Positions 8,299 to 33,823 of a DNA stretch of 43,293 nucleotides are shown here, one piece after another. Source of the DNA: Gallionella sp. (GTDB lineage Bacteria > Pseudomonadota > Gammaproteobacteria > Burkholderiales > Gallionellaceae); NCBI GenBank assembly GCA_030653355.1, contig JAURZN010000001.1:1-43293 (forward strand). Reading direction: 5' to 3'. The position numbers and the translations under genes are program-made. The notes under the pieces are model-generated. The model had not been told where the DNA came from and made no database searches. It saw only the letters and a program-made list of their open reading frames with translations. How positions within the stretch are numbered: the first letter of the stretch is position 1; every line of letters starts with the position of its first letter.

Positions 8299-9522
8299 AT
8301 GAGCGATTACCCCACAATCCACTGGAACGAGGACGGCGAAGACAAATCAGCCCGCTGGCGCTCGGAAAGCGGCACCAAACCGCCCGCCAAGGTGATGATC
8401 GCCGACGATCGCATCACCGCCGATGTCGCTTATCGTCTGGCCTGCGAAGGCACAGCGCTGCTGTGGCGCGGAGATTTTCAAAATGCACGCCAACTGTTGC
8501 AGGCAATGACGCGACGCGCAAACCAGAAACCCAAAAAAAACAAAAAGATAGCCACCTCACCTAACGGGCAAGCCCGTTTCCCTCACCTCAATCCTCTCCC
8601 GCTAGCGGGAGAGGAGGCAAACGTATCGCTACGCGAACTTCAAGCCAGGGAAGCCTTCCATCTGCATCGTCAGGCGCAATCGCAGCGCGCCCGCACGCTG
8701 GGCATGCTGCTGCTGCCGTTCAACGCAGACCACAGCGTACCGCTGCGCCGCGCACCCGATGTGCATCTGGCGTGTACGGACGCATACGGTGCCGCGTCAG
8801 AACCTTATATTGCTTCGCTGCGCGGTTTGCAGGGTCTGATAGGCGCCTACGAATGGCGCAAGAATGGCGTGGAAATACCCGCACTTCAGGCGCGCATACA
8901 TCCGCATTACGGCGTGTTCGCACCGATACGCGGCGAATACGTGGATCTGGTGAATGAGGCTCCGCTGCCCGCGCTGAAAACCGCCTTTGACATCGGCACA
9001 GGAACAGGTGTGCTGGCCGCGGTACTGGCCCGCCGCGGCATCAAACACATCGTCGCCACCGATCAGGATGAACGCGCACTGGCTTGTGCCCGTGAAAATT
9101 TGACGCGTCTGGGATTGAACGCACAGGTTGACGTTGTGCAGGCCGACCTCTTCCCGGAAGGACGCGCAGCTTTGATCGTATGCAACCCGCCGTGGGTTCC
9201 GGCTCGACCCAGCTCACCGCTTGAATACGCCGTATTCGACCCGGATAGCCGCATGCTGCTCGGATTCCTCAATGGACTGGCCGCCCACCTGGAGACTGGC
9301 GGAGAAGGCTGGCTGATACTCTCAGACCTGGCCGAACATCTGGGTCTGCGCACGCGCGCCGAATTGCTTGCCGCGATTGCGGCGGCGGGCTTGCAAGTCA
9401 TGGAAAATATAGATGTAAAACCGCACCACCCCCGCGTCTCTGACACCAGCGACCCGCTACACGCAGCGCGCGCGGCAGAACTGACCTCACTTTGGCGACT
9501 AACGGCAAAACCCACCAACTAA
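8299..9522 (+). CDS. Class I SAM-dependent methyltransferase (MTS type) with in-frame repeat insert
   Basis: Start ATG follows the RIO stop directly (TAA-ATG). The C-terminal domain (from about residue 225) has AFDIGTGTGVLAAVLARRG (SAM motif I), ATDQDERAL (motif II) and IVCNPPWVP (catalytic NPPW), the signature of N- and guanine-directed methyltransferases such as PrmC and RsmC/RlmG. The N-terminal part (LLWRGDFQNARQLLQAMTRR...AREAFHLHRQAQ) is less familiar. Residues 84-115 (IATSPNGQARFPHLN...) are a translated palindromic intergenic repeat, see 8548-8643. The stop at 9520-9522 touches the heptamer array. Substrate unknown; ribosomal RNA or protein is plausible from the neighbours. Confidence 0.8.
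   Translation: MSDYPTIHWNEDGEDKSARWRSESGTKPPAKVMIADDRITADVAYRLACEGTALLWRGDFQNARQLLQAMTRRANQKPKKNKKIATSPNGQARFPHLNPLPLAGEEANVSLRELQAREAFHLHRQAQSQRARTLGMLLLPFNADHSVPLRRAPDVHLACTDAYGAASEPYIASLRGLQGLIGAYEWRKNGVEIPALQARIHPHYGVFAPIRGEYVDLVNEAPLPALKTAFDIGTGTGVLAAVLARRGIKHIVATDQDERALACARENLTRLGLNAQVDVVQADLFPEGRAALIVCNPPWVPARPSSPLEYAVFDPDSRMLLGFLNGLAAHLETGGEGWLILSDLAEHLGLRTRAELLAAIAAAGLQVMENIDVKPHHPRVSDTSDPLHAARAAELTSLWRLTAKPTN
8548..8643 (+). repeat. Palindromic repeat inserted in frame in the methyltransferase gene
   Basis: Two hairpins lie side by side: AACGGGC-AA-GCCCGTT (8563-8578) and a perfect 24-nt palindrome at 8592-8615 with centre CTAG. The encoded text (PHLNPLPLAGEEANVSLREL) is the familiar translation of a common intergenic repeat, and interrupts a basic linker between RRANQKPKK and AREAFHLHRQ. 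The 96-bp estimate keeps the frame. Confidence 0.7.
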
Positions 9523-9598
9523 CCACTCACCACTCACCACTCACCACTCACCACTCACCACTCACCACTCACCACTAACGACTAACGACTAACGACTA
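9522..9598. repeat. Heptanucleotide tandem array: ACCACTC x7, ACCACTA x1, ACGACTA x3
   Basis: Eleven contiguous 7-bp units (77 bp) with two stepwise base changes along the array. It fills the gap between two convergent genes: the methyltransferase stop (9520-9522) shares its first base, and the last codons and stop of the amidotransferase (stop at 9582-9584) lie within it. Confidence 0.97.
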
Positions 9599-11369
9599 GC
9601 ACATCCACATTGATCTGTAGCCACCATTCCAGCAAGGCCAGATGCCACAATTTGCTACCCTGAATACGCGTCAGATGCGCCTCCGGCGCGGCCAGCAATT
9701 TCTCCACATAGCTGCGCCGATACAGGCCACGCTTAATACAAGCCTCTGAATTCAGGATGCCGCGTATCCGTTCGAGGAAATCACCGCGCAGATACTTCAG
9801 CGCGGGCACCGGAAAATAACCTTTGGGGCGATCTATCACAGCGTCCGGGATCAGGCCGCGCGCCACAGCCTTGATCGGAAACTTGCCGCCCTCCTTCAGC
9901 CTCAATTCAGGCGGCATTTTTGCGGCCAATTCCACCAGCTCGTGATCCAGAAACGGCACGCGGGCTTCCAAGCCCCAGGCCATCGTCATGTTATCCACGC
10001 GCTTCACCGGATCATCCACCATCAGCCGCGTTACATCCAGCCGCAAAACCTGATCGAGGAATTCTGTAGCACCCGGTTGTTGCAACTGTTCCTCCACCCA
10101 GGCGGTGGTAACGTCCGGGATATCGTAGTCTTCCGTCATCATTTCCAGATATTCGGCATGATCGCGATCGAAGTAATGACGCGCAAAGCGCTCCACGGGC
10201 GTGCCGTTTTCCGCCGCCATGCGCGGATACCAGAAGTAGCCGCCGAACACCTCGTCCGCGCCCTGCCCTGCCAACACGACCTTCATCTCGTGCGACACCT
10301 GCTCACCCAGCAAGTAAAACGCGGCGACATCGTAACTCGGCATCGGCTCGGACATCTGTGCGATCACATCCGGTAAATGCCCAAGCATTTCTGCGTTGGG
10401 CAACGAAAATTTGTGATGTCGGGTATTAAAAAGCTTGGCCACAAAATCGGAATACTCAAACTCGTCGGCCTGTTCGTCCGCCACTTGCTCGAAACCTATG
10501 GAAAACGTGTTTAATTCATCCGTATGCTCGGCCAGCAACGCCACCAGCAGACTCGAATCCAGCCCGCCGGAAAGCAGCACGCCTATAGGCACATCGGAAG
10601 CCAGACGATGGCGCTCCACCGCACGCCGCAATACCGTGCGCGTCGCGTCCAGCCAGTCCTGCTCAGAAAGCGTTTGCTCGGGACGGGTCGCATCCAGCGT
10701 CCAATAACGACGTTGCGTCACTTCGCCTGCAGCAGAGAAACGCAAAGTGTGCGCAGGGGGCAGTTTTTTAATCCCCTGAAGTATCGTACGCGGGGCGGGT
10801 ACTACGCCGTGCAGGGTGAAATGCTGGTGCAGCGCGATCAGATCGAGACGGGTATTCACCCCACCCCCCGCCAGCAATGCTTGCGGCGTAGAAGCAAAAC
10901 GCAGCCGGGCATCATCCAGCGTGTGATACAGCGGCTTGATACCCAGCCGGTCGCGCGCGAGGAACAGTGACTGGTCACGCAGGTCCCATATGACGAAGGC
11001 AAACATGCCGTAAAAGCGCTGTACGCATTGCTCGCCCCATGCGTGATACGCCTTGAGGATCACCTCGGTGTCGCCCTCTGAAAAGAACGCATAGCCCATC
11101 TCCACCAATTCTGCGCGCAGTTCTTTGTAGTTATAGATGCTGCCGTTGAATACCAGTGCCAGGCGCAATTCTTCGTCCAGCATAGGCTGGTCTGCGTGAC
11201 TGGAAAGATCAATGACCGCCAGTCGCCGATGACCCAATGCAAGCGGGCCATCATTGTAGTAACCCTCGTGATCCGGCCCGCGCCGCGCCAGACGCGCAGT
11301 CATGCGCTTGAGCGCCTCCATGTCGGGCGCAAGTTGATCGAAGCGTAATTCACCGCAAATGCCGCACAT
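9582..11369 (-). CDS. asnO: Asparagine-synthetase-like amidotransferase, N-acetylglutaminylglutamine amide (NAGGN) type
   Basis: The start is set at 11369 so that MCGICGE exposes Cys2, the N-terminal nucleophile of class II glutamine amidotransferases; a start 4 codons earlier would block it. The protein has 595 residues. RRGPDHEGYYNDGPLALGHRRL and FNGSIYNYKELR belong to the glutaminase domain. LLSGGLDSSLLVALLAE is the PP-loop of the synthetase domain, and GQGADEVFGGY follows it. Length and the C-terminal block RPKGYFPVPALKYLRGDF fit the branch that amidates N-acetylglutaminylglutamine to the osmolyte NAGGN rather than AsnB. Its usual partner, the ligase Ngg, is not in the window. The last codons (LVVSR-stop) are written in heptamer repeat sequence. 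Confidence 0.8.
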   Translation of the reverse strand: MCGICGELRFDQLAPDMEALKRMTARLARRGPDHEGYYNDGPLALGHRRLAVIDLSSHADQPMLDEELRLALVFNGSIYNYKELRAELVEMGYAFFSEGDTEVILKAYHAWGEQCVQRFYGMFAFVIWDLRDQSLFLARDRLGIKPLYHTLDDARLRFASTPQALLAGGGVNTRLDLIALHQHFTLHGVVPAPRTILQGIKKLPPAHTLRFSAAGEVTQRRYWTLDATRPEQTLSEQDWLDATRTVLRRAVERHRLASDVPIGVLLSGGLDSSLLVALLAEHTDELNTFSIGFEQVADEQADEFEYSDFVAKLFNTRHHKFSLPNAEMLGHLPDVIAQMSEPMPSYDVAAFYLLGEQVSHEMKVVLAGQGADEVFGGYFWYPRMAAENGTPVERFARHYFDRDHAEYLEMMTEDYDIPDVTTAWVEEQLQQPGATEFLDQVLRLDVTRLMVDDPVKRVDNMTMAWGLEARVPFLDHELVELAAKMPPELRLKEGGKFPIKAVARGLIPDAVIDRPKGYFPVPALKYLRGDFLERIRGILNSEACIKRGLYRRSYVEKLLAAPEAHLTRIQGSKLWHLALLEWWLQINVDVLVVSR

Positions 11370-11405
11370 GCCAAACTCCAATAAATTCGCAAGCCGGATT
11401 ATCGC

Positions 11406-11546
11406 TTACAGAGAGGGATTAAGGATATGCTGATTGTCATGCTCGTAAAACCAGTGAAGCGCAGTTTCGAGAGACAGTCTGCGGGTGAGCCATTTACGGG
11501 CAGCGTCACCAGCGTGCGCTGGCCGTGCAAAATGGTGTGTACTTCA
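11406..11546 (-). pseudogene. Possible 3' remnant of an unidentified gene
   Basis: One minus-strand frame reads ARKWLTRRLSLETALHWFYE, then HDNQHILNPSL and a TAA at 11406-11408. The amino-acid make-up looks like a true protein C-terminus. The frame is closed by TGA after about 46 codons upstream and has no good start, so it would be a truncated gene end. It lies 37 bp before the amidotransferase start. I do not recognise the family, and chance cannot be excluded. Confidence 0.3.
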
Positions 11547-11599
11547 AGAAATGCTCGAATGTAATCTTCAATCCGGCAGACGTGGCCTGCGCGGAATTA

Positions 11600-11623
11600 A
11601 TCAGCCGTCCGAAAACGGCTGAT
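11600..11623 (-). terminator. Hairpin downstream of the tusE-like gene
   Basis: ATCAGCCGT and ACGGCTGAT are perfect 9-bp arms around a 6-nt loop, 6 bp after the stop of the minus-strand gene. No strong T-tract follows, so its efficiency as an intrinsic terminator is uncertain. Confidence 0.6.
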
Positions 11624-11628
11624 AATAC

Positions 11629-11922
11629 TCAGACGCAACCCGTCGGTTTGGGCATGCCGCCGTATTTGGTTATCGGCTTCATCGGGCCCGTCATCCACAA
11701 CTCGAAGACCTCTTTCTGATCTTCTCCGATGTGCTTGGAAAACTTGCGTATCGGCGGCACCGAACCGAATTGCTCGTAAAATTCACGCGCCTTCATGATC
11801 TGATCCCATTTTTTTTCATTCAACTCGTAACCATCCGCCTCGGCCATCGCACGACCGATATCCTCCGACCAGTCACTCATATCAACCAGATAACCATCAC
11901 CATCACGATTTGGGAGTTCCAT
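11629..11922 (-). CDS. DsrC/TusE-family sulfur carrier protein, single-cysteine type
   Basis: This 97-residue protein (ATG 11922, AAAGG about 8 nt upstream; a GTG two codons earlier is possible) shows the family pattern: WSEDIGRAMAEADGYELNEK, then FYEQFGSVPPIRKFSKHIG, ending KYGGMPKPTGCV. The penultimate Cys (CysA) carries the persulfide. In true DsrC a second Cys (CysB) sits 11 residues earlier; here that position is Thr (ITKYGG). It is therefore TusE-like, able to relay sulfur but not to form the DsrC trisulfide/disulfide. TusE serves tRNA 2-thiouridine synthesis, but no tusBCD is present. It follows the unknown 395-residue gene by 84 bp on the same strand. Confidence 0.85.
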   Translation of the reverse strand: MELPNRDGDGYLVDMSDWSEDIGRAMAEADGYELNEKKWDQIMKAREFYEQFGSVPPIRKFSKHIGEDQKEVFELWMTGPMKPITKYGGMPKPTGCV

Positions 11923-12006
11923 ATTCACAACCTTTCACATAAAGTTAATATTAGGGAACGACTATATATTGCCCGACAAAACTAGTCAAGCATTGTACTC
12001 TTCCCT

Positions 12007-13194
12007 TTATTCCCTAGGCCAGTAGTCGGTGGCTATGCCCTCACCCAGATCAGCATCGATCAGCCGTCGGCGCACCTCAAGCAGGCGTTCGATCAGCGCG
12101 GGCTCAAATCCGGCATACGCTTCCGCGTCCGGTTTGCGACTCACCACCACACCCAGCAATTCGGTAATCGCATTGCCTATGGAGTTCTGGCTGATGGTCA
12201 CGATCAGTCTGCCCGCATCATTGCGATAGATCAGCTGCTTGAATGCGGGCTGCCAGCGTATCGCACTTGCATACTTCACATCCGCGATACAGTGATTACG
12301 CACCTTCTTCGCGGTCTTCATAAAATCGTTATTGAACAGCAGCACACTCTCCACCTGCTCAGGGAAATACACATCCGGCAGCATGGGCGCGTTATGCGTG
12401 GAAACTTGCGAAAAGAAAGTGCGATAAAAATCAATGAAGCCCTTCAGCACCTCATCGTATTCCCGCCAGAAAGATACGTCCCTGAGTGCATCCGCCCCAC
12501 CCTGTATTTCCCAACTGGGCAATCCCTGCGGATAGCCAGTCAGGCCGATGCGGGCATCGTCTCCGCTCACCGGTTTAAGGATTTTCAGATTCAGCGCCCT
12601 GGAAAAAAATTCGCGATACACATCGCGCATATAAGCCTGAAACAAACTATGCTGACCACCGTCGGTCAAGTTGGGATTGTTGCTGTCGGCCAGCCGGGCA
12701 TCGCGTAACTGTTGCTTGGGGAAAACCACAAAATGATTGTGCAGCATGCGTATACTGGGCACGCCCGGAGAAGTCAGCGGCCAGGTCGCATCCAGGCTCG
12801 CCTCACCCGCCAGAATCAGCGCCTCGTCCGGATCGGGATATTGCTCCAGCATGTAGTCGATGATGATCTGGTTCATCCGGTTCCAGACATGCTTCACATT
12901 GTCCGCAACCTGCGTGCGCCGTACCGGCCGCCCCAGGGGATTGAGTATCGTCCTGGAAGTATTGTAAATAATGGAACAATCGAACTCGGTGCTGTGTCCC
13001 AGCGCCTTGCGATAGAGCAACAGATTTTCCGGGTTGATCAGCAAACCATTGTTGTTCACCAGATCATTCAGATTCTCGGTGCTGTTGAAAAACTCGTTGT
13101 GCTTCATCCCCTCCGGCACTTCCAGCGGAATAGGTCTGAAGGGCGTTAACACTTCGCGCGGCCCGATTTGAGCCGGTTGCTGAAAAATGCTCAT
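12007..13194 (-). CDS. Unrecognised 395-residue protein upstream of the TusE-like gene
   Basis: I do not recognise this family. AAGGAG lies 6 bp before the ATG, so it is well expressed in principle. It is soluble (no signal peptide or membrane segment), with motifs that look conserved: GLLINPENLLLYRKALGHST, SRTILNPLGRP, LAGEASLDATWP, VPSIRMLHNHFVVFPK, GLPSWEIQGGAD and FYRTFFSQVSTHNAPMLPD. HNHF after a hydrophobic strand is loosely like the His motif of the HIT/GalT superfamily, but there is no H-x-H-x-Q or other supporting motif, so this is only a hint. The next gene on the strand encodes a DsrC/TusE-type protein, and a shared transcript is likely. Confidence 0.75.
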   Translation of the reverse strand: MSIFQQPAQIGPREVLTPFRPIPLEVPEGMKHNEFFNSTENLNDLVNNNGLLINPENLLLYRKALGHSTEFDCSIIYNTSRTILNPLGRPVRRTQVADNVKHVWNRMNQIIIDYMLEQYPDPDEALILAGEASLDATWPLTSPGVPSIRMLHNHFVVFPKQQLRDARLADSNNPNLTDGGQHSLFQAYMRDVYREFFSRALNLKILKPVSGDDARIGLTGYPQGLPSWEIQGGADALRDVSFWREYDEVLKGFIDFYRTFFSQVSTHNAPMLPDVYFPEQVESVLLFNNDFMKTAKKVRNHCIADVKYASAIRWQPAFKQLIYRNDAGRLIVTISQNSIGNAITELLGVVVSRKPDAEAYAGFEPALIERLLEVRRRLIDADLGEGIATDYWPRE

Positions 13195-13436
13195 CTACTT
13201 CTCCTTGCACAACTACAGGGCAAATTTCCCTGATCGTTTGTCAATTTTCAAACTCCCCTGGCCTGCTTTTCTGAACCTATACATTTCTCGCGTGTTGGAC
13301 GGACTTCTTGCGTGTTGCACACATAATCGCCACAACCTGAACGGATTGTACGCTGCTGCCGCAAACAGAAATACGCATAAAATGCTTGAGCGCCATTCTA
13401 CCTGCCACCCACAGCGATAGCAGCTTCAGCGTCCTG

Positions 13437-14747
13437 TCAGGGAATAGTCAGCCGCGCTTCCGTACCGCCGCCCTCGCGTGGCAATAGTGCTATTTTCCAG
13501 CCATTAATATCTGCTAGTTGGCGCGCAATCGCCAGGCCCAGTCCGCTACCGCCGGTAGTGCTGCTGCGCGATGATTCGAGCCGGTAAAAAGGCTGGAATA
13601 CGTTTTCCACCTGATCAGGAGGGATGCCGGGGCCACGGTCGAGCACACGGATGAGTGCAATGCTGTTTGTGCAGTCACACTCAATGTCCACCGCCTTGCC
13701 TGCACCGTAACGCACCGCATTGCCGATCAGGTTAGCCAATATGCGCCGCAGGGCCATATGACCGATAGAACGCAGACAAAAGCCTTGCGGCTGAAAGGAA
13801 ATTTCCGCACCCTCGCTTCTGGCATTGTCGGCCAGCTCCTGCAACATCTGATTAACATCAATTTCCTGAGCCGCCTCCTTTTGCAGCCCTCGACTAAACG
13901 CCAGAAACTCGCCGATGAGGCGGTTCATTTCCTCCAGATCATTTTGCAGTCGCGCGACGATTTTAGGATTCGCATTTTCCGGCAACATTTCCATCGCCAG
14001 ACGCATGCGCGCCAGCGGCGTGCGCAGGTCGTGGGAAATTCCGGCCAGCAGAATGGTGCGGTTGGCGAGCAACTCCTGCACCTGCAACGCCATTTGATTA
14101 AAGGCGCGCGCCAGATTGGCCAGCTCCTCAGGGCCGCTTTCCGGCAATGCCTCCGGAACATGGCCTTGTCCGACGTGCCTCGCCGCATCTGAAAGTCGTT
14201 TCAGCGGGCGTGTAATGCGCCGCGCCAGAATGACGGCAGTAATCAGCGTAAGCGCAATGGTTGCAGCCAATACCAGCAACAACGCCAATGGCGGCTGTAT
14301 GCCCAGTTGATCGCGTGAAAAACCGATGCGTATCAGCTTCCCGCCGGTGTGAATTTCAGCCCAGAACCAGGTCTGTTCCCATTCCGTGGTTTTGATGCGA
14401 ATATTTTCCCCGGTGCGCGCTTCAAGGGCATTTTCGAGCAGAGTCAAATAGGGGAAATAGCGCTCGTAACCTGGCATGACTGTAGTGTCATCGAACAACC
14501 AGAGGTGATGTTTTTTGGCTAATTCAAGACCAAAAGCTGCGCGCGTTTGCGGAGGCAATTCTACCCAGGTCTGGGCCGACAACACCATGAGAGCGGCGAG
14601 ATCATCCGCTGAGCGTTTAGCCATCGGCAACATGATAAAGTACGCAGTAACAGCGAGTGTGATGAGCTGAAAGGCCATCAAAGCGAGTGCCACCGTGGTG
14701 GCTGTGCTGCGAAACAGTGTGGTGCGCTTGCGACGGAAAAACATCAT
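13437..14747 (-). CDS. EnvZ-type sensor histidine kinase
   Basis: Start 14747 (MMFFRRKRTTLF) overlaps the regulator stop by 4 bp; the longer frame to 14789 lies inside that gene. The 436-residue protein has a membrane segment at about 18-40, a periplasmic sensor of about 120 residues, a second membrane segment (LALLLVLAATIALTLITAVI), HAMP (RRITRPLKRLSDAARHV), H-box GISHDLRTPLARMR with the phospho-His, N-box NLIGNAVRYG, DRGPGIPP and GGSGLGLAIARQ. The EnvZ/RstB-type layout is complete. The signal sensed is unknown. Confidence 0.93.
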   Translation of the reverse strand: MMFFRRKRTTLFRSTATTVALALMAFQLITLAVTAYFIMLPMAKRSADDLAALMVLSAQTWVELPPQTRAAFGLELAKKHHLWLFDDTTVMPGYERYFPYLTLLENALEARTGENIRIKTTEWEQTWFWAEIHTGGKLIRIGFSRDQLGIQPPLALLLVLAATIALTLITAVILARRITRPLKRLSDAARHVGQGHVPEALPESGPEELANLARAFNQMALQVQELLANRTILLAGISHDLRTPLARMRLAMEMLPENANPKIVARLQNDLEEMNRLIGEFLAFSRGLQKEAAQEIDVNQMLQELADNARSEGAEISFQPQGFCLRSIGHMALRRILANLIGNAVRYGAGKAVDIECDCTNSIALIRVLDRGPGIPPDQVENVFQPFYRLESSRSSTTGGSGLGLAIARQLADINGWKIALLPREGGGTEARLTIP

Positions 14748-15457
14748 CCAGCCTTGTTTCCGGGAGAAAACAGATAGCCTTCTCCCCATACGGTACGTAC
14801 ATACACCGGCGCGGATGGATCGTCTTCAATCTTGCGCCGCAATCGCGTCACCCTGACATCGATGCTACGATCGAACGGTGTGCGCTCATAACCTTTAAGC
14901 TTGTCCATCAGGCTGTCGCGGCTCAATACGTGATTGGGATGCTCGACAAAAACACGCAGCAGATTGAATTCTCCGGCAGTCAGGACGACATCGGCCCCCT
15001 CTCGGGACAAGCTGCGTGACTCAAGATCAAGTCGATAAGGGCCAAAACGTAACATGCCCTGCGCCGACTCTTCCGTTCGACTATCGCCGCCTTCCCTGCG
15101 CCGCAGCACAGAACGGATACGCGCCAGCAGTTCACGCGGGTTGAACGGCTTGGCAAGGTAATCGTCCGCCCCGACCTCCAGCCCGATAATACGGTCAATA
15201 TCCTCGCCGCGCGCCGACAGCATGATAATCGGTTGACCGCCCCGCATCCGTAATTTGCGCGCCAGTGTCAACCCGTCCTCACCCGGCAACATCAGGTCGA
15301 GAATAACCAGATCCGCCGCATGTTCCGCAAGATATCGTTCCATAGCAGAACCGTCGGCAACGGCAGCGACGCTGTAGCCCTGCTCAGAGAGATACTGCTG
15401 CAGCAATTCGCGCAGGCCGATATCGTCATCCACCACCAGAATATGTTTATGGCTCAT
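14744..15457 (-). CDS. OmpR-family response regulator
   Basis: The start at 15457 (MSHKHILVVDDD) is chosen because the receiver begins there; 33 upstream codons of open frame have no family match and would cover the operator. Its 237 residues comprise a receiver with acidic pair DDD, phospho-Asp in LVILDLMLPGEDG and Lys in LAKPF, then a winged-helix domain ending RSIDVRVTRLRRKIEDDP...VRTVWGEGYLF. It is co-translated with the kinase. The repeated GTAAC sites in the divergent promoter are likely its own targets, controlling this operon and the small secreted proteins at 15639 and 16036. Confidence 0.93.
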   Translation of the reverse strand: MSHKHILVVDDDIGLRELLQQYLSEQGYSVAAVADGSAMERYLAEHAADLVILDLMLPGEDGLTLARKLRMRGGQPIIMLSARGEDIDRIIGLEVGADDYLAKPFNPRELLARIRSVLRRREGGDSRTEESAQGMLRFGPYRLDLESRSLSREGADVVLTAGEFNLLRVFVEHPNHVLSRDSLMDKLKGYERTPFDRSIDVRVTRLRRKIEDDPSAPVYVRTVWGEGYLFSPGNKAG

Positions 15458-15510
15458 GTTTTTCACTATACAGCAGAGTGCTTTCCGCTGTAACGGGCGG
15501 CACGCCTCCG

Positions 15511-15553
15511 GTAACACATCGTAACAATTTGCAGCAACACGGAAATTGTTACG
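15511..15553. promoter_or_regulatory. Probable OmpR-type operator with direct and inverted GTAAC repeats
   Basis: GTAACACATC (15511) and GTAACAATTT (15521) form a direct repeat at exactly 10 bp spacing, the spacing of tandem OmpR-family sites. CGTAACAATTT (15520-15530) and AAATTGTTACG (15543-15553) are perfect 11-bp inverted arms 12 bp apart. Further GTAAC motifs occur at 15490 and 15584. All lie in the 181-bp divergent promoter between the regulator and the first secreted-protein gene. Confidence 0.75.
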
Positions 15554-15638
15554 CAATGCTTCCCCGTCATCATGGCCACATCAGTAACGCGACCTGATGA
15601 TGACAACACAACTTGAACTTAACCAACAGGAGTACAGA

Positions 15639-15938
15639 ATGAATACCAGAAACTTTCTTTACAACGCTGCGCTTATTTTCGGCCTTGCCGTTGCCGGCCC
15701 GAGTTTTGCGGACGAGCCCGTTAATATCGATCCATCAATCATGACCCAGCAGGAGCGCGAAGCCTATCGCACCGAAAGGCAGTCCAGCATGACTCCGGAG
15801 CAGCGCGCTGAAAAACAGGCATCGCGAAACCAGAGTGGTGGTGGACAGGGGCAAGGCAGCATGTCGCGCGATGGTTCCGGATCGGGCGGTCAATATGGTC
15901 GCAACGGCGGTGGCGGGCACGGCAGGGGCGGACGCTGA
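15639..15938 (+). CDS. Small exported Gly-rich protein, paralogue 1
   Basis: ATG 15639 has AGGAG 6 nt upstream. The product has 99 residues with a clear signal peptide (MNTRNFLYNAALIFGLAVAG...SFA-DE). The mature part has SIMTQQEREAYRTERQSSMT and TPEQRAEKQASRN, then a low-complexity Gly/Ser/Gln/Arg tail. The MTxxEREAYRxxxxxMTPEQR pattern recurs in the next gene and in many small periplasmic proteobacterial proteins of unknown function. It is transcribed divergently from the two-component system across the GTAAC operator and is probably controlled by it. A periplasmic stress or metal role is speculative. Confidence 0.8.
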   Translation: MNTRNFLYNAALIFGLAVAGPSFADEPVNIDPSIMTQQEREAYRTERQSSMTPEQRAEKQASRNQSGGGQGQGSMSRDGSGSGGQYGRNGGGGHGRGGR

Positions 15939-16035
15939 TCTCAGAACAAACTGTTTATATCCGTAACTGAAATAGCAGCGACATAAACACCCGGCTGCCT
16001 CTCCTCGTAATGAGATCGTTGCGAGGAGAGACAGT

Positions 16036-16431: not shown

Positions 16432-16502
16432 TGCAAGAATCAAAAACTGTGCGCTACGCGTACTAGCCGCGCTGGACAATATTGCAAAATAAGGAATTTG
16501 AC

Positions 16503-16691
16503 ATGTGCCAACTTAAACAAAGTAACTTCAATATCGCCGCATTGCGGCAGGCCGCCATTGATGCCGCTGTGGAGCTGGATTGGACGAAAAATGAACCTAC
16601 GATATCTCAAGAAACTCGCGAAAGGGCACAGCGCATCGTTAAGCGCGTTTTTGTTGCTTGTGAGGCGCTGGACTTAGAAGCACGGGCATGA
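16503..16691 (+). CDS. Small hypothetical protein
   Basis: The ATG at 16503 has AAGGA 8 nt upstream and encodes 62 residues, MCQLKQSNFNIAALRQAAID..., mainly helical and acidic-basic mixed. A perfect hairpin (16706-16725) follows the stop, supporting a real transcription unit. No family recognised. Confidence 0.55.
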   Translation: MCQLKQSNFNIAALRQAAIDAAVELDWTKNEPTISQETRERAQRIVKRVFVACEALDLEARA

Positions 16692-16705
16692 TTGCAAATG
16701 ATGCA

Positions 16706-26401: not shown

Positions 26402-26405
26402 CCAA

Positions 26406-27020
26406 CTAATCTCCGGCGATCACATCCGCGCCCACAGGCGGTGTGAACTGAAACTGGGCTGCGGCAAGTTTAGGATTGCGTTGCATGGCAAAAAAACGCA
26501 ACACGGTTTTATGGCCAAAAGTGTCATTCAGCTCCATAACAACCAGTCCGGCATCCGCATCGAATCCCATCAACACCGCCGAAAAGCTGCTTTCCTGCGC
26601 TTTGGGTGTGGCTTGCAGCCAGTCCAGTCCTTCGCGCTGCCCGGCTTCCTTGAGCACAAAACCGCGTTCGATCTCATTGCTGCCCGCCAGCAGGGCGGCC
26701 GGACTGCTGCCCAGCGCCGCATCCAGCTTCTTGACGGTTACCTGATTCAGATCCTTGTCATACAGCCAGAATTTCGCGCCATCGCCGACGATGATCTGCT
26801 CGTAAGGTTTCTGGTAAGTCCAGCGGAAACGGCCGGGGCGCTGAAACTGCATCACGCCGGAGGCGCTCTGCATCCGCTTGCCATTCTGTTCCAGCACCAC
26901 CTGAGTAAAATTCGCCTGCGCGGAATGGGTGCCGGCAATAAAGCTCTTCAACTTTTCGATGGCACCGGCATGACCGTTGAGCGGCAGAACTGCCAGTAAG
27001 AGTGCAACGATATATTTCAT
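26406..27020 (-). CDS. lolA: Outer-membrane lipoprotein carrier protein
   Basis: This 204-residue protein starts with a signal peptide (MKYIVALLLAVLPLNGHA-GA). FTQVVLEQNGKRMQSASGVM and RPGRFRWTYQKPYEQIIVGD are the LolA signatures, including the conserved Arg and Trp that line the lipid cavity. It carries lipoproteins through the periplasm from LolCDE to LolB. The 72-bp gap before it on the transcript, after ftsK, contains the heptamer array at 27069-27100. Confidence 0.94.
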   Translation of the reverse strand: MKYIVALLLAVLPLNGHAGAIEKLKSFIAGTHSAQANFTQVVLEQNGKRMQSASGVMQFQRPGRFRWTYQKPYEQIIVGDGAKFWLYDKDLNQVTVKKLDAALGSSPAALLAGSNEIERGFVLKEAGQREGLDWLQATPKAQESSFSAVLMGFDADAGLVVMELNDTFGHKTVLRFFAMQRNPKLAAAQFQFTPPVGADVIAGD

Positions 27021-27068
27021 TATTTTTCTCTGTAGAAGGATTGAGCTAAAGGCCAGGACAGCAGGTTT

Positions 27069-27100
27069 TCCTCAATCCTCAATCCTCAATCCTCATTCCT
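27069..27100. repeat. Heptanucleotide array TCCTCAA x3 plus variant TCCTCAT, with partial fifth unit
   Basis: Units at 27069, 27076, 27083 and 27090 (last with a T for A), then TCCT. The ftsK stop codon (27093-27095, minus strand TGA) lies within the fourth unit. The sequence differs from the ACCACTN units elsewhere, but period and placement are the same. Confidence 0.95.
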
Positions 27101-29360
27101 GTCTTGCAGGCGCGATCACTTCGCGATTGCCATTGCTCTGCATAGGCGTGACGATGCCTGCTGCTTCCATTTGTTCGACCAGACGCGCGGCGCGGTTGTA
27201 GCCTATGCGCAGATTGCGTTGCACCAGCGAGATCGAAGCGCGACGGGATTTGACCACGATCTCTACTGCCTGATCGTACAGCGGGTCTGATTCGGCATCC
27301 AGCGTCGGCGACACGCCGCCGTCATCCGATGCGTCTTCGAGGGAATTGAGCACGCCGTCTATATATTGCGGCTCGCCCTGCGCCTTCAGGTATTCGGTAA
27401 TGCGATGCACTTCCTGATCTGAGACGAACGCGCCATGCACGCGCTGCGGATAGCCTGTGCCGGGCGGCAGATACAGCATGTCACCCTGCCCCAGCAGTGC
27501 TTCCGCACCCATCTGATCGAGGATGGTGCGCGAATCTATCTTGGATGACACCTGAAACGCCACACGCGTCGGCACGTTCGCCTTGATCAGGCCGGTGATC
27601 ACATCGACCGAGGGACGCTGAGTCGCCAATACCAGATGTATCCCCGAAGCACGCGCCTTTTGTGCCAGACGTGCGATCAGTTCTTCTATTTTCTTGCCGA
27701 CCACCATCATCAAATCGGCCAGTTCGTCGATAAACACCACGATCAGCGGCAATTCCTCCAGCGCTTCCGGGTCATCGGGGGTGAGCGAGAACGGATTAGT
27801 GAGCGGCTGACCTGCCTTGATGGCTTCGCGGTGCTTCTGGTTGAAGCCTGCGATGTTGCGCACGCCGAAATGGGACATCAGCCGGTAACGCTTATCCATC
27901 TCCTGCACGCACCAGTTGAGCCCGGACGCCGCCTGACGCATATCCGTCACCACCGGACAGAGCAGATGCGGAACGCCCTCATAGACCGACAACTCCAGCA
28001 TTTTGGGATCGATCAGCAACATACGCACCTGTTGCGGCGTGGCTTTATAAAGAATGCTGAGTATCATGGCATTGATCCCCACCGACTTGCCCGAACCGGT
28101 CGTTCCCGCCACCAGCACATGCGGCATCTTCGCCAGATCCGCCACGACCGGCTTGCCGGAAATATCCTTGCCCATCGCGATGGTCAGCATGGAGCCCATT
28201 TGCGCGTATACCTGAGAACTGAGAATTTCCGACAGATGCACCATCTGCCGTTTGGGATTAGGCAACTCCAGTGCCATATAGCTCTTGCCAGGTATGGTCT
28301 CAACCAGGCGGATACTGACCACCGACAGCGCGCGTGCCAGATCGCGCACCAGGTTGGTGATCTGACTGCCCTTCACGCCGACCGCAGGTTCAATCTCGTA
28401 GCGCGTGATGACCGGGCCGGGATAAGCGGCCACCACTTTGACCTCCACGCCAAAATCTTTCAGCTTGTGTTCAATCAATCGCGAAGTGAATTCCAGCGTA
28501 TCGGCGGAAACGGTCTCGACCTGATGGGTCGCCGGGTCAAGCAAATGCAGGGGTGGCAACGGCGAATCGGGCATATCGGCGAACAGCGTAATCTGTTTTT
28601 CTTCGCTTACCCGCGCCGACTGAGTCACTTCCATCAGCGGCATTTCGATGCGTATCGGCTGATGCACCTCGACGCGCTTCTTCTCCACTTCAACGACTGC
28701 GCTGCGCTGACTGGTGGCCTGTGCACCGATGCGTCTGTCCTGACGCGTCTGCCAGTACTGTTGCACTCCGCAATAAGCGGCTTCCATCTGCGTACCCAGC
28801 CAGTCCATGAATCGCAACCACGACAGGCCGCTAAACACGCTAAAACTACTCGCCATCAACGCCAGCAGCAGCAAGGTTGCGCCGGTAAATCCCAGCAAGC
28901 GCGTCAGCGCGTCACCGATCAGCAGACCGAACATGCCGCCCGGCACCAGAGGCAGGGACGCTTCCAGGGTATATAAACGGATAGCTTCAAGCGCGCTGCT
29001 GGCGAGCAACAACACAACAAAGCCGGCTATCGAAACCCACAGCGCGCGTTTACTGAAGATGCTGTCCGCCCGCAAATTACGATAACCTGCCCATAGCTGC
29101 TGCAACATGAACAGCACCAGCCACCATGCCGAAAAACCAAACAGATAAAACAGCAGGTCGGACAAATAAGCGCCCAGCACCCCCGCAGGATTATCGATCT
29201 GCGTGCCGGCTACACTATGCGACCAGGCCGAATCAGCCGGATTGTAGCCATACATGGCCACGGCGAAATACAGCGCCCCGGCCACCAGCAGCAGCCAGCG
29301 CGATTCGCGCAGCAAACTGAACAGCTTGTTTCCCGGAAATTCATCAACCGATTCAGCCAT
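27093..29360 (-). CDS. ftsK: DNA translocase FtsK
   Basis: Start 29360 ([14 protein letters not shown]) overlaps the upstream regulator by 8 bp; the longer frame to 29450 lies inside that gene. The 755-residue protein has four membrane segments in the first 200 residues, a short linker, and the motor: beta domain with [16 protein letters not shown], Walker [15 protein letters not shown], Walker [14 protein letters not shown], and a C-terminal gamma domain ([26 protein letters not shown]) that reads KOPS. It separates chromosomes at division. The last codons lie in the heptamer array. Confidence 0.96.
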
Positions 29361-30006
29361 GCTCAACCCCGACCAGACCCAGCTGCTCGGCAGCACGCAC
29401 CGCTTCCAGACGACTCTTGACATTGAGTGCCAGATACACGGCAGCCACATGGATTTTGACGGTGCCTTCGGCCAGATGGAAGGCGGATGCGATCTCCTTG
29501 TTGCTTCTCCCTGCGCAAAGCAGCTGCAAGACCTCCAGCTGCCGGGGTGTCAGGCCAAACCCGCTGGCCTGCGAATTGCGCTTGTCGACCGGCCCCGTGT
29601 CAAGCGCGTGATGACGCAATATTTCCGGGGGGACATACACGCCGCCGGACAACACCAGTTTCAGCGCATCCAGCATGGTCTGCTCGTTCGAGCTCTTGCT
29701 GACAAAACCCGCCGCCCCGTAATTCATCACCTTTTCCATGTTTGCGCTTCCTTCCTCGGCGGAGATCACCACCACCGGTATATGCGGATAACGCTGATGA
29801 AAATAGCTAACGGATCTCGGCCCGTCACTGCCGGGCATATGCAAATCCAGCAGCGCCAGATCCATATCCGGATGCAGCGCCGCAAGCTTTAAACAATCCA
29901 GAAAATTTCCCGCCTCCAATATTTCCACCACCCCGGACAGTTGCTGCAATAATTAGCACATCCATCCCCAGAACAAAGAGTGGTCATCTGCCATCAATAT
30001 TTTCAT
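29353..30006 (-). pseudogene. NarL/LuxR-type response regulator interrupted by an in-frame stop
   Basis: From ATG 30006 (G-rich Shine-Dalgarno upstream) the frame reads MKILMADDHSLFWGWMC, then TAA at 29953-29955, and continues in the same frame as LLQQLSGVVEILEAGNFLDC to a complete regulator. The first part supplies the acidic pair (ADDH), the second the phospho-Asp (LALLDLHMPGSDG), Lys (FVSKSS) and LuxR helix-turn-helix ([20 protein letters not shown]...[15 protein letters not shown]). GWMC-stop replaces the expected D-G-L-R block. Without read-through, translation could restart at TTG 29949, giving a receiver lacking its first strand. Either a pseudogene, a programmed event or a sequencing error. 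It overlaps ftsK by 8 bp. Confidence 0.75.
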
Positions 30007-30143
30007 AATTTCCCCCCGGATAAGTTAGTCTTGCTCAAATGGACGTCAATCATAACATCCGGCAGCCCCAAAAAAACGCGGTCTGCAACAGATGCGTACA
30101 GTCTCCTCATGCACGACCGCCAGCCTGGCCTTGTACACAGGCG

Positions 30144-30734
30144 CTACGATTTTCCCAGCGCCAGCAGCAGGCGTATGTCCTCTGTCAGCCACTCGGCCCT
30201 CTGCCCGTAGGGTGCAAGCAGGCGCACTTTGCCCTTGCCGTCTATCAGAAATGTACCGGCGCTATGATCCATGTTATAGCCTGACTTGGACGGTTGTTTC
30301 TGGTACATCACGTCAAAGGCCCTGGCAGTCTGAGCGGTGGCGAGTGCATCACCATACAGCCCCAGAAAGGAAGCATGAAATGCTGGCACGTACTGTGCCA
30401 GCAATTCGCGGTCATCGCGCTCCGGATCAACGGTAACGAACAGCACTTGCACACTGTCAGCATCCGCGCCCAGCGTTTCCATTGTCTGGCGCAAATCGGC
30501 CATCGTGGTCGGGCAGACATCCGGGCAATGCACATAACCAAAGAATAACACCACCACTTTGCCGCGAAAATCAGCCAGCGTGCGCGGCGTGCCGTGGTGA
30601 TCCGTTAATTTGAAATCTGCCCCGGCATACTTTGCCCCCACCTCGCTGGCATGAAACGGCGAAGGCAGCTTGGGCTCCCCGCACCCGGAAAACAACAACA
30701 CCGCCATCAGTATCAAAGCGTTACGCAGCAACAT
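30144..30734 (-). CDS. SCO1/SenC copper chaperone, lipoprotein
   Basis: This 196-residue protein has a lipoprotein signal (ALILMAVLLFSGCGE, lipobox Cys at 18). The thioredoxin-like domain has the copper-binding CPDVCP (about 74-79) and the distal His in GYNMDHSAGTFLID. SCO proteins insert copper into the CuA or CuB site of haem-copper oxidases. It overlaps the upstream SafE-family membrane gene by 14 bp, so the two probably work together in oxidase assembly. Confidence 0.93.
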   Translation of the reverse strand: MLLRNALILMAVLLFSGCGEPKLPSPFHASEVGAKYAGADFKLTDHHGTPRTLADFRGKVVVLFFGYVHCPDVCPTTMADLRQTMETLGADADSVQVLFVTVDPERDDRELLAQYVPAFHASFLGLYGDALATAQTARAFDVMYQKQPSKSGYNMDHSAGTFLIDGKGKVRLLAPYGQRAEWLTEDIRLLLALGKS

Positions 30735-31431
30735 GACAACTCCCCGCCCAGCCGTTTACATAAAAGGTATAGCCCACTTTAGCCAGACCATACACACCGA
30801 AGCTTGCCACCAGCAATCCCGCACCCATGCGCACCTGTGGTGATTGCACCCAACGCTTGATACTTTCCCAGAACAGGCCGATAGCCAGCAAATTCGGCAA
30901 TGTTCCCAGACCGAACGCCAGCATCACCAGCGCCCCGCTTTCAGCCTGACCACTGGCCAGCGCTGTAACCAGCACGCTATAGACCAGGCCACAAGGCAAC
31001 CAGCCCCACAGCGTACCCAGAAAGAATGCGCGCAACGGCGTCGTAACGGGAAACAGGCCGCGCGTCAGCGGCTGGATGCGCTTCCACAACACGCGTCCCA
31101 GACCTTCAATGCGCCGCACCGCCCCCCATATTCCGGCGAGATACAGCCCCAATGCGATCAGCATCAGGCTGGACAAGGCAAACAACAGATGCTGCATCGG
31201 CACCACATCGCGCAACAGTAGTCCGGCTTGTCCCACCGCGCCGGCCAGCGCGCCAGCCAACGTATAACTCGCCACACGGCCGCTGTTGTAAGCCAGATGG
31301 AACGGCCAGCGCGCACCCTTCCCGGGCAATTGGGTGGTGAGAATGCCCACCAGGCTGCCGCACATACCCAGACAATGCACGCCACCCAACAGGCCGACAA
31401 AAAACACCGCGATAATGCTGAATTCAGTCAT
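30721..31431 (-). CDS. SafE/TauE-family membrane protein (COG2836 type)
   Basis: This 236-residue protein has six membrane segments. It starts with FFVGLLGGVHCLGMCGSLVGIL, the CxxxC-containing first helix (HCLGMC) typical of the COG2836 family linked to cbb3 oxidase and copper handling. LWGWLPCGLVYSVLVTALASG is the matching second-half motif with a Cys-Gly pair. Copper transfer or export is likely together with the overlapping SCO gene. A heptamer array occupies the leader, ending 2 nt before the ATG, so no Shine-Dalgarno is present; translation may rely on the upstream bioD stop in the same array. Confidence 0.85.
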   Translation of the reverse strand: MTEFSIIAVFFVGLLGGVHCLGMCGSLVGILTTQLPGKGARWPFHLAYNSGRVASYTLAGALAGAVGQAGLLLRDVVPMQHLLFALSSLMLIALGLYLAGIWGAVRRIEGLGRVLWKRIQPLTRGLFPVTTPLRAFFLGTLWGWLPCGLVYSVLVTALASGQAESGALVMLAFGLGTLPNLLAIGLFWESIKRWVQSPQVRMGAGLLVASFGVYGLAKVGYTFYVNGWAGSCHVAA

Positions 31432-31433
31432 GA

Positions 31434-31468
31434 AGTGGTCAGTGGTCAGTGGTCAGTGGTCAGTGGTC
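31434..31468. repeat. Heptanucleotide array AGTGGTC x5 between bioD and the SafE gene
   Basis: Five perfect units. The bioD stop (31460-31462, TGA on the minus strand) lies within the fourth, and the SafE gene ATG (31429-31431) begins 2 bp after the array. The minus-strand unit GACCACT differs from the ACCACTC array at 9522 by one base. Confidence 0.97.
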
Positions 31469-32146
31469 AGTCGGATTTTGGCGGTTTAACAGGGCGAAAT
31501 CCAAATATCTTGCTGCATCCGTCGCATCCGGCGAGCTGTCAAAATGCGGCACGATACCCAGCAATGGCGCAGCGATGCGCTGCTGTAAAGCGGCGATATT
31601 CTCATTGAGCATAGCCATTTGTCCATCCACACAGTTCGCTACCCATCCCGCCAACTTCAGCCCTCTGGCGGCAATGGCCTGCGTCGTAAGCAGCGCGTGA
31701 TTCAGACAACCCAGCTGCATGCCCACCACCAGAATGACCGGCAATTTCAGCTGCCTTGCCATATCTGCGCCGTCCTGCTCCGCATTCAGCGGCACCAGGA
31801 ATCCACCCGCGCCTTCGACAATGACCACATCCGCCTGTCCCGCCAACTCCCGATAGGAAGTCACGATGCGATCCAGATTGATGCGTATACCCGCAAACTG
31901 CGCGGCCAGGTGTGGCGCAACCGCCTGAGTGAAACAATAGGGATTGACCTGACCGTAAGTTGCGAGCACATTGCCAGCGGCACGCAAATGCTGAGCATCA
32001 TCGTTGTGATCATGTTCATCACAGCCTGCCGCGACGGGTTTAAAGCCGACCGCGCGCAGACCCTGATCCGCAAAACCGTGAAGCAAGGCGCAACTGACCA
32101 GCGTCTTGCCGACATCGGTATCCGTACCTGTAATGAAGTAGCTCAT
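31460..32146 (-). CDS. bioD: Dethiobiotin synthetase
   Basis: This 228-residue protein has the ATP loop FITGTDTDVGKTLVS (4-18), VEGAGGFLVPL with the catalytic carbamate region, and a C-terminal GWVAN motif. It closes the ureido ring of dethiobiotin from DAPA, CO2 and ATP. Its ATG overlaps the bioC stop by 4 bp. Its last residues (NPTDH) and stop are encoded in part by the heptamer array. Confidence 0.95.
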   Translation of the reverse strand: MSYFITGTDTDVGKTLVSCALLHGFADQGLRAVGFKPVAAGCDEHDHNDDAQHLRAAGNVLATYGQVNPYCFTQAVAPHLAAQFAGIRINLDRIVTSYRELAGQADVVIVEGAGGFLVPLNAEQDGADMARQLKLPVILVVGMQLGCLNHALLTTQAIAARGLKLAGWVANCVDGQMAMLNENIAALQQRIAAPLLGIVPHFDSSPDATDAARYLDFALLNRQNPTDH

Positions 32147-33009
32147 TTTATTTTGAACGATGTCTTGATAATGGCCGAGCCATCGCTGCTCAGGCGCGCT
32201 TGCGGCTTCCAGGCATGACCATAGATGACTTCATAGGTGGCAGGCAATTTTCCGTCACGACGCAGCTTTTCATAATTTTCCAGCAGACGCGCCCAGGCAT
32301 TTTTCCCCATCAGGCCCTGCCCACGCCCCGCCGTCGCGTTGTGCGCGCCTATGGTCTTGAGGTCCTGCAACACCCCGCGCACATCGTCGTAAGTCAGCGT
32401 CATGTATTCCATATCCATCACCGGCTCGGCAAAGCCCGCCTGCATCAGCATGTCGCCTATGTCGTGCATGTCGGCAAAGCGGTTCAGATGACTGCGTTCG
32501 TCCACGCCGTTGAATGCCTGCCGTAATTCCTTCAAGGTGTCCGGCCCGAAGGTGCTGAACATCAATAAGCCTTCTGTTTTCAGCACGCGCTGCAATTCCA
32601 CAAAAGTCGCCGGCAAGTCGTTGCACCACTGCACCGCCAGATTCGACCACACCATGTCAACGCTGCCCGATGCCAGCGGCAAGGCTTCTACATCCGCGCA
32701 CAACTGCCTCACGCCGCCGAACAGCTTCTGCCACCAGCTTGAATGGCTACGCGCGTTCTGCAACATGCCGATGGCGATATCCAGCGAGATCACCGTTGCT
32801 GCCGGATATTTTTCCGCCAGCTTGCGCCCGCCCCAACCCGTTCCACTGCCTGCATCCAGCAGTTGAGCAGGTTGCAGCTTGATGTAATCCAGCCGCTCCA
32901 GCATGCGGGTGCACACTTCGCGCTGCAACACCGCTGTTGCATCATAAGCGGCCGCTGCACGGCTAAAGGAGCGCCGCATCCTCTTCTTATCTATAACAAA
33001 TTCATCCAT
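32143..33009 (-). CDS. bioC: Malonyl-ACP O-methyltransferase
   Basis: This 288-residue protein starts with the family N-terminus KKRMRRSFSRAAAAYDATAV, followed by SAM motif I LLDAGSGTGWGGRKLAEKYP and VDMVWSNLAVQWCNDLPATF. BioC methylates the malonyl-ACP carboxyl so that pimelate can be built by the fatty-acid enzymes; BioH later removes the methyl. It overlaps bioH by 8 bp. Confidence 0.95.
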   Translation of the reverse strand: MDEFVIDKKRMRRSFSRAAAAYDATAVLQREVCTRMLERLDYIKLQPAQLLDAGSGTGWGGRKLAEKYPAATVISLDIAIGMLQNARSHSSWWQKLFGGVRQLCADVEALPLASGSVDMVWSNLAVQWCNDLPATFVELQRVLKTEGLLMFSTFGPDTLKELRQAFNGVDERSHLNRFADMHDIGDMLMQAGFAEPVMDMEYMTLTYDDVRGVLQDLKTIGAHNATAGRGQGLMGKNAWARLLENYEKLRRDGKLPATYEVIYGHAWKPQARLSSDGSAIIKTSFKIK

Positions 33010-33823
33010 GCAAAAAACCCACCAGCTGTTTTACAAATATATCGGGATGCGACAGAAAAGGAGCATGTGCCGCACCCCTGATCGTTGCCAGTCGCGCATT
33101 CGGCATCTGAGCCGCAAGATAGTGTGAGGCTGGCAAAGGCGTGAGCGTATCACGTTCTCCGGCTATCACCAGCGCGGGCTGAACAACTTCCGGCAGGACG
33201 ACACGTAAATCACAGTCTCGCAAAATCTCCAGACCGGATTGCAACGCCGCCAGATCCGGTTCGCCGCGACTAAGCAGGCTGTGGCGCAAGGTCACCAGCA
33301 GCTCTCGTTCCTGTTCGCTGCCACGCACCTGTAGCGCGAGGAAACGGCGCAAGGTCGGCAGGTAATCCTGCTGCAATGAGGCGGAAAAAGCAGCCAGCGT
33401 ATCAGCGGCCATCGCGCAGGGCCAGTCGGTTTGCTGCACAAAACAGGGGGTCGAAGACACCAGCACCAGACGATTCACCTGTTGCGGATAGCGCAGCGCC
33501 CAGCGCAACGCGACCTGCCCGCCCAGCGACCAGCCGCAGACTGTGAGCGGCCCGATGTCAGAAAATTGCTCGGCCAGCTGGTCGACGATGGAATCAAGAT
33601 AGCGAGTGGTGAGTGGTGAGTGGTGAGTGTGCGGTTCGGCGCTGACCACTGGCCACTTACCACTTCCCGCACTATGCCCATGCCCCGGCAAATCCACCGC
33701 CAGCACCTGAAAATGCTGCGCCAATTGTTCCGTCACCCCGCCCCACATCCCGCCGTGCATGCCCCAGCCGTGGATGAGCAACAAAGGCGCGCCCTCACCG
33801 CTGGTTTCAACGTGCAAGTTCAC
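33002..33823 (-). CDS. bioH: Pimeloyl-ACP methyl ester carboxylesterase with a 20-residue repeat-derived insert
   Basis: This 273-residue alpha/beta hydrolase has the oxyanion strand LLLIHGWGMHGGMW, nucleophile elbow CGWSLGGQ, acid IAGERDTLTPLP and catalytic His in RGAAHAPFLSHP. It cleaves pimeloyl-ACP methyl ester. Between LPGHGHSAG and YLDSIVDQLAEQF, where relatives have a short link, it carries GKWPVVSAEPHTHHSPLTTR (residues 54-73 region), encoded by the 60-bp heptamer insert at 33605-33664. The site is a surface loop after strand beta-4 in hydrolases of this fold, so activity may survive. It overlaps bioF by 17 bp and bioC by 8 bp. Confidence 0.93.
   Translation of the reverse strand: MNLHVETSGEGAPLLLIHGWGMHGGMWGGVTEQLAQHFQVLAVDLPGHGHSAGSGKWPVVSAEPHTHHSPLTTRYLDSIVDQLAEQFSDIGPLTVCGWSLGGQVALRWALRYPQQVNRLVLVSSTPCFVQQTDWPCAMAADTLAAFSASLQQDYLPTLRRFLALQVRGSEQERELLVTLRHSLLSRGEPDLAALQSGLEILRDCDLRVVLPEVVQPALVIAGERDTLTPLPASHYLAAQMPNARLATIRGAAHAPFLSHPDIFVKQLVGFLHG
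33605..33664. repeat. Head-to-head heptamer arrays inserted in frame in bioH
   Basis: Plus strand: AGTGGTG x3 (33605-33625), an 18-bp spacer, then GACCACT, GGCCACT, TACCACT (33644-33664). The two halves are complementary, so the insert can fold into a long imperfect hairpin. Total length is 60 bp, exactly 20 codons, with no stop in the bioH frame. Confidence 0.9.

Follow-up and report, generated by a model that had tools for sequence, protein, structure and literature searches.

Four tandem arrays of a seven-base unit lie in a 43,293-nucleotide stretch of a Gallionella sp. genome (assembly GCA_030653355.1, contig JAURZN010000001.1; hereafter the window), and arrays of the same period stand at the same gene junctions in related genomes, often with a different unit. 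We interpret them as long-lived heptameric simple-sequence loci that expand, shrink and change unit quickly at an inherited site and that are tolerated at gene ends and in protein linkers, a reading to which we assign a probability of roughly two in three. Part of that joint reading, and held with the same confidence, is that these loci are of the known kind of long simple-sequence repeat (SSR), some alone and some in inverted pairs. Three of its elements were observed directly: a strong preference for period 7, absence from divergent junctions, and copy numbers and units that differ between close relatives. The window is contig 108 of a draft genome of 2.6 Mb in 224 contigs, here called G000; related genomes carry labels of the same form.

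All four arrays of the window are reported by Tandem Repeats Finder and are visible in the sequence, as the initial annotation had stated, and three of them are at gene ends. The first (9513..9597, no strand assigned) lies between convergent genes and passes from ACCACTC units into ACGACTA units; the TAA of the forward-strand methyltransferase gene (8299..9522) is in a variant unit at its left edge, and the last codons and TAG of the reverse-strand asparagine synthase gene (9582..11381) are inside it. The second (27069..27100, reverse strand; TCCTCAA, read there as TGAGGAT) starts at the stop codon of ftsK (27093..29450, reverse strand), whose TGA opens the exact array. The third (31434..31471, reverse strand; AGTGGTC, read as GACCACT) stands between a DsbD_2-family gene and a bioD-like gene (31460..32146, reverse strand), to which it supplies the TGA, and it ends 2 bp before the next start codon. 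The fourth (33604..33664, reverse strand; GAGTGGT, read as ACCACTC) is in frame inside a bioH-like gene (33002..33823, reverse strand), the repeat finder reporting 33604..33629 and a degenerate inverted copy reaching about 33664.

Each main unit carries TGA on exactly one strand, the reverse strand in the first three arrays and the forward strand in the fourth, and the bioH array has the orientation without a sense-strand stop. Within the first array, the ACCACTC part has TGA on the reverse strand, and the ACGACTA part has TAA on the forward and TAG on the reverse strand. The annotation had proposed that the gene-end arrays carry stop triplets on the strand of the gene that they end; this holds for 27069, 31434 and the gene at 9582..11381, but not for the main ACCACTC run of the first array, which has no forward-strand stop.

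The preference for period 7 is strong. We counted arrays by a period-neutral criterion, as the longest uninterrupted stretches whose every base is identical to the one p positions further along, with at least 14 matched bases or, more laxly, at least 12. A G000 sample of 602,985 bases (60 contig stretches of up to 20 kb, and the window) held 20 arrays of period 7 at 14 matched bases; periods 6 and 14 contributed one and two. No array of periods 4–12 appeared in three Markov replicates, and the heptamer arrays of G000 are not due to chance. The genus sample of 1,399,728 bases includes 60 stretches of relatives chosen partly for orthologues of the window; it covers part of each genome and the same site recurs among relatives, so its counts are not all independent. 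At 14 matched bases it held 44 arrays of period 7, which bears out the predicted bias for 7 over 6-mers (two) and 8-mers (none). The remaining 13 of the 57 arrays of periods 2–15 included two each of periods 9 and 15, three of period 12 and four of period 14, and periods 2, 3, 4, 5, 8, 10, 11 and 13 were absent. At 12 matched bases period 7 gave 58 arrays, period 14 ten, period 12 six, period 6 four, periods 9, 11 and 15 three each, periods 4 and 10 one each, and periods 2, 3, 5, 8 and 13 none. These heptamers are longer than chance allows and dominate all other periods, which is the mark of long SSRs.

Orthologous junctions show that the site persists. Of 27 junctions comparable between G000 and G015 (at least 12 matched bases), three have an array in both genomes, 24 in neither and none in only one (P 0.0003); for G011 the 25 comparable junctions divide into three, 22 and none (P 0.0004). 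The word in the array is less stable: four of the six comparisons at the three conserved window junctions share no unit. The bioD junction has GACCACT in G000 and CGACTAA in both G015 and G011, the ftsK junction has TGAGGAT in G000 and GTGGTAA in G015, and the asparagine synthase junction has ACCACTC and ACGACTA in G000 and AGTAGCT in G011. The other two comparisons do share a word. At the asparagine synthase junction, G015 lacks the ACCACTC run but retains ACGACTA, which makes up the lesser part of the array in G000; at the ftsK junction, the unit of G000 recurs in G011 in opposite orientation, next to two GTGGTAA units. Across 13 genomes, the ftsK site has a period-7 array in seven, from four unit families.

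The bioD junction also shows that copy number differs between relatives and that arrays supply real stop codons, as had been claimed. Units there are GACCACT (G000), CGACTAA (about six copies in G015 and about three in G011), CTTACCA (G003) and CTAACCA (G014), and of the 24 same-genus rows the remaining 19 show no array on visual inspection. In G015, G011 and G003 an in-frame TAA precedes the array by 6 bp; in G000 this ancestral TAA reads CAA, and the TGA of the array closes the ORF (open reading frame) six codons later. An array can thus act as a backup stop, as a by-product, if the CAA is not an error of the draft assembly, which is possible at this position. The flank word beside bioD is unique in the genome as an exact match, and five places match it with two mismatches.

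Inside bioH, the frame is kept. In each of 11 genomes the length of its variable loop is divisible by three, and ten of these have a visible repeat insert, of five kinds: ACCACTN palindromes in G000 and G002, the GTAGGGTGGGCACG type in G015 and G011, the GTAGGTCGGGAT type in G003 and G014, the GGGAGAAGGG type in G005, G010 and G020, and another palindrome in G012; the loop of G001 is short, without an evident repeat. Palindromy was judged by eye except for the window copy. Relatedness among the genomes was judged by BioD identity, and the bioH families do not follow it; therefore replacement or recombination must be involved. As a separate observation, mutL of G000, G003 and G011 has heptamer arrays in the stretch separating its two domains (L173:3698-5593, reverse strand, with Pfam MutL_C and DNA_mis_repair; L373:204-2129, forward strand, and L378:894-2873, reverse strand, both about 80% identical to the first). 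A change of one unit would shift the frame of this mismatch-repair gene, which could be a mutator switch.

Arrays are unevenly distributed among junctions. They occur at seven of 110 convergent, 16 of 841 tandem and none of 108 divergent junctions, with a divergent deficit (P 0.004, over 35 kb of divergent spacer) and an excess of convergent over tandem per junction (P 0.012); nine of 38 array groups are inside ORFs. Distances at the tandem junctions bear on the idea that the arrays are regulatory sites, that is, targets for RNA- or DNA-binding factors or G-quadruplex elements controlling their neighbours. Five of the 16 tandem-junction arrays are within 6 bp of the next start, a position resembling the 2 bp at 31434, and 11 are nearer the stop. 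RNA folding of 9505-9605 gives no structure on the forward strand and a better one than shuffles on the G-rich reverse strand (z -5.7), and regulatory roles have been proposed for other heptamers (PMC4679880, PMC4692102, as far as these sources were available). However, close relatives spell one site with different words, which is not what a sequence-specific binder would lead one to expect, and none of the window units (ACCACTC, TCCTCAA, AGTGGTC, GAGTGGT) has GGG on either strand. Regulation is, to our mind, the least probable account of these arrays.

The central proposal of the initial annotation was that the arrays are selected stop cassettes: as 7 equals 1 modulo 3, three stop-bearing units close every frame and could insulate genes from read-through or frameshift. 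Three of the four window arrays do close ORFs, and the bioD change from TAA to CAA, with the array as backup, is what such a cassette would offer. Yet any period that is not a multiple of 3 satisfies the stop arithmetic, which therefore does not explain 7; periods 4, 5, 8, 10, 11 and 13 are predicted equally, and all are at zero at 14 matched bases. Nor is the logic new, as the all-frame stops of TAACTGA heptamers are already described in the available part of MacGregor 2015 (PMC4679880).

Unit composition gives the proposal some help. Of 67 unit families, 47 have a stop triplet on one strand or both, with 40.0 expected from letter-permuted units (P 0.022), and in the genus alone 15 of 20 families do (10.6 expected, P 0.011). 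A contig scan for five ACCACTN units returned at least 120 stretches from many phyla, 80 of which were used as loci of diverse bacteria; their non-ACCACTN families are stop-bearing in 32 of 47 cases (29.4 expected, P 0.22). The enrichment is real but mild, a point for the earlier reading, and we rejected it as a rule for units. The most enriched triplet, ACT/AGT (38 against 17.6 expected), is no stop, and TGA/TCA reaches 24 against 18.2; units without a stop also occur at gene ends and at the bioH site. The excess of ACT/AGT holds both in the genus, where 13 of 24 families have it (6.1 expected), and in the non-ACCACTN families of the diverse bacteria, where 27 of 47 do (13.0 expected), at loci picked for ACCACTN whose neighbours may be related.

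Orientation was scored in 38 array groups (any unit, at least 14 matched bases) and 30 groups containing ACCACT (at least 11), the latter from loci located by the ACCACTN pattern, of which 26 of 27 were used, L385 being dropped as a copy of L384. Set aside from the two sets, respectively, were groups with stops on both strands (nine and one), with no stop (six and none), between convergent genes (three and one) and with no gene end within 100 bp (two and four). Where an ORF stops inside the array or no more than 6 bp ahead of it, the stop-bearing strand is sense in 15 cases and antisense in one; where the gene has its own stop 7–100 bp before the array the ratio is three to nine (P 0.15), with no sense preference, and inside ORFs it is one to 13, the sense case being a short run in mutL (L378). 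The predicted bias towards the adjacent gene exists where an ORF meets the array and is absent where the gene has its own stop 7 bp or more ahead of it. The 80 loci of diverse bacteria, with ORFs called as the longest, gave sense-to-antisense ratios of 8:2 for ORFs ending in the array, 7:4 for stops 0–30 bp before it, 4:6 at 31–100 bp, 6:7 for arrays near 5' ends only and 0:11 inside ORFs.

In a simulation, we placed real arrays, each in a randomly chosen direction, next to 1,026 real gene ends. Of 7,781 simulated ORFs that ended in the array, 6,557 were sense; stops 0–6 bp before the array split evenly, and all 4,451 arrays inside ORFs were antisense. A total of 1,024 antisense cases ran off the tail. 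For ORFs that stop in the array or no more than 6 bp ahead of it, the simulation gives 75% sense, and the observed 15 of 16 is slightly above this at P 0.06. As a set, the three observed ratios lie near those of the simulation. The bias thus appears mainly where reading-frame logic forces it. The custom gene callers used here can misplace starts and miss genes, so some of the arrays scored as inside ORFs near 5' ends may be start errors. Of the earlier interpretation as a whole, the period-7 bias and the supply of real stops stand, and the stop logic as a cause does not; we regard selected stop cassettes as very unlikely.

A third alternative is that short mobile palindromic elements, REP- or MITE-like and perhaps moved by a Y1 transposase, land repeatedly in permissive sites, and that the heptamers are their arms. 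An inverted partner lies within 90 bp in 15 of 38 array groups (p at most 0.02 each), and five repeat kinds share one bioH position. Of 61 genomes of the genus, 51 have Y1_Tnp matches, G000 having two, but such matches also occur in five of 14 control genomes. REP/RAYT elements are headed by GTAG and form an imperfect palindrome, with a RAYT transposase; GTAG-headed inserts are present at the bioH site of G015, G011, G003 and G014, and none is in the window arrays. A palindromic core (about GTAGCGGTCGCAGC...GCGGGTA) is found next to arrays in more than one genome (L330, L349, L385 and L386); it could be a dispersed element of small size. Against mobility, 23 of the 38 groups have no significant inverted partner, including those at 9513 and 31434, flank sharing among the matches listed is mostly between orthologous sites, and ACCACTN or ACGACTN arrays stand at one bioD junction in five genomes. 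Mobile palindromes seem to us an unlikely source.

Related candidates were tried and rejected. A larger mobile element carrying the arrays was dropped, the shared flanks among the matches listed being mostly orthologous sites or the heptamers themselves. A hairpin or terminator as a general rule was also rejected; an inverted partner is present in 15 of 38 groups. In the window, a short inverted copy, CTCAATCCT, follows the 27069..27100 array before lolA (inverted partner p 0.017), and 27015-27110 folds with z -2.25; the bioH array has an inverted score of 15 and a fold of z -3.7 with 25 shuffles but -1.1 with 200 shuffles and other limits; the predicted fold of the 31434 array on the reverse strand is 0 kcal/mol. 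No terminator-like site was predicted at an array in 26900-34000, and Rfam at the gathering threshold matched nothing in the window except the tRNA and had no match in five loci. ACCACTN as a pan-bacterial word was set aside too: (ACCACTG)3 is in two of 299 genomes of the phylum, one of them G000, against one of 299 for the reversed control. That kind of control is void for mirror-symmetric units such as GAGTGGT (8 and 19 matches against 9 and 21), because the reversed array is the same array.

We therefore return to inherited simple-sequence loci and to how they might arise. Slippage in 7-bp steps would make and homogenise the arrays, with template switching contributing where two inverted arms exist. 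Selection would remove arrays that break a promoter or a reading frame, leaving them where they are harmless, just past stops, between convergent genes and in protein linkers, and in the reading that leaves the gene open up to its end. Stops at array edges would then be mostly a trace of this position filter, occasionally reused as a real stop, as in bioD. As for the period itself, the available part of PMC4679880 relays the idea of a polymerase contacting seven bases.

Several points weigh against inherited loci changing by slippage. Slippage is an inference, and none of these observations accounts for the preference for 7. Some of the families at the ftsK and bioH sites are unrelated, and in bioH G000 belongs to the same family as the distant G002 and not to those of the close G015, G011 and G003; this fits replacement or new insertion better than slow drift. 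Similar units at the bioD site may merely mirror the units that dominate each genome, and sites in related genomes are not independent counts. Finally, arrays 0–6 bp past a stop lean sense by 7:1 (P 0.07), where the simulation gives 50:50; this residue probably reflects stops lying in a degenerate edge unit of the array, and the bioD of G003, overlooked by the gene caller, is a further antisense case beyond that count. A variant would have the genus keep fixed addresses (junctions, the bioH loop, the mutL interdomain region) that are rewritten with a changing stock of heptamers and palindromes, different words per species, by template switching or by a copying step resembling reverse transcription or transposition. 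We consider this variant possible but improbable.

The window genes beside the arrays were assigned from Pfam: MTS (3.6e-13) for the methyltransferase gene, Asn_synthase (5.6e-83), FtsK_SpoIIIE (1.5e-74) for ftsK, LolA (4.5e-47) for lolA (26406..27020, reverse strand, downstream of ftsK), AAA_26 for the bioD-like gene and an alpha/beta hydrolase for the bioH-like gene. The names in the bioF-bioH-bioC-bioD run combine Pfam domains with what is known of the pathway. The methyltransferase gene has an in-frame insert at about 8560-8650 (RFPHLNPLPLAGEE translated), from palindrome-like DNA, which is present in G000 and G015 and absent from G011, G003 and G014. A SIR2_2-domain protein of 584 amino acids (671-2425, reverse strand) is in the first 4 kb, where the gene caller found little coding signal, and a 27-bp tandem repeat (3288-3341) is near its gene.

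These results separate a design-like account of stop cassettes from the outcome of a filter on harmless positions. The comparison that does so, arrays overlapping an ORF end against arrays beyond an intact stop, can be reused for other repeats. A conserved address with a changing word also offers a tractable case for studying the preference for period 7 and whole-array change of unit in bacteria. Among the matches listed in the open-licence literature, we found no paper that deals with heptamers of Gallionella, and none that describes one unit replacing another at orthologous heptamer sites.

The closest known systems are other heptamers and long SSRs. An excess of heptanucleotides among long SSRs was reportedly described by Mrazek et al. 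in 2007. As related in the available parts of PMC4679880 and PMC4692102, heptanucleotides are the most abundant long SSRs in most genomes, slippage has been proposed as their source, and multiples of three prevail in coding sequence, all of which has a counterpart in what is observed or proposed here; those descriptions, as far as available, hold no comparison of units at orthologous sites such as we made. TAACTGA repeats occur in marine Beggiatoaceae, Cyanobacteria and Bacteroidetes, and in the forward orientation they hold stops in all three frames, 13 sets overlapping stop codons as a necessary consequence (MacGregor 2015, PMC4679880, in the part available). The arrays here share their short, dispersed and mostly intergenic 7-mer form, all-frame stops in one orientation, some overlap with upstream stop codons and in-ORF copies mostly near ends. 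TAACTGA is one unit, mostly just upstream of starts (PMC4679880, same part), whereas here there are many units, with a lean to stops and to junctions of convergent genes, and relatives may carry different units at a given site; TAACTGA is not among the 17 unit families of the 603-kb G000 sample.

The GGGAATC and GGGGA(T/C)T heptamers of Xanthomonas and Nostoc (Rehm et al. 2015, PMC4692102, as far as available) are similar in period, in being scarce between divergent ORFs, in lying near or over sense-strand stop codons, in occasional inverted pairs and in positions conserved between species. They differ in their G-quadruplex GGG tracts with four units preferred, where the window units have at most GG, and in that the repeat is usually preserved at a conserved place, where here the unit often changes. 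Borg repeats (PMC9879509, in the part available) likewise have fast-evolving, locus-specific units that are intergenic or start in gene ends and keep the frame within ORFs, but these are units such as 18–21 nt in perfect copies, on archaeal extrachromosomal elements. Rickettsia palindromic elements (PMC10969869, in the part available) offer a parallel to the bioH loop as in-frame palindromic insertions in a metabolic gene; they are about 150 bp long with a conserved peptide, whereas the bioH position holds different families in different species.

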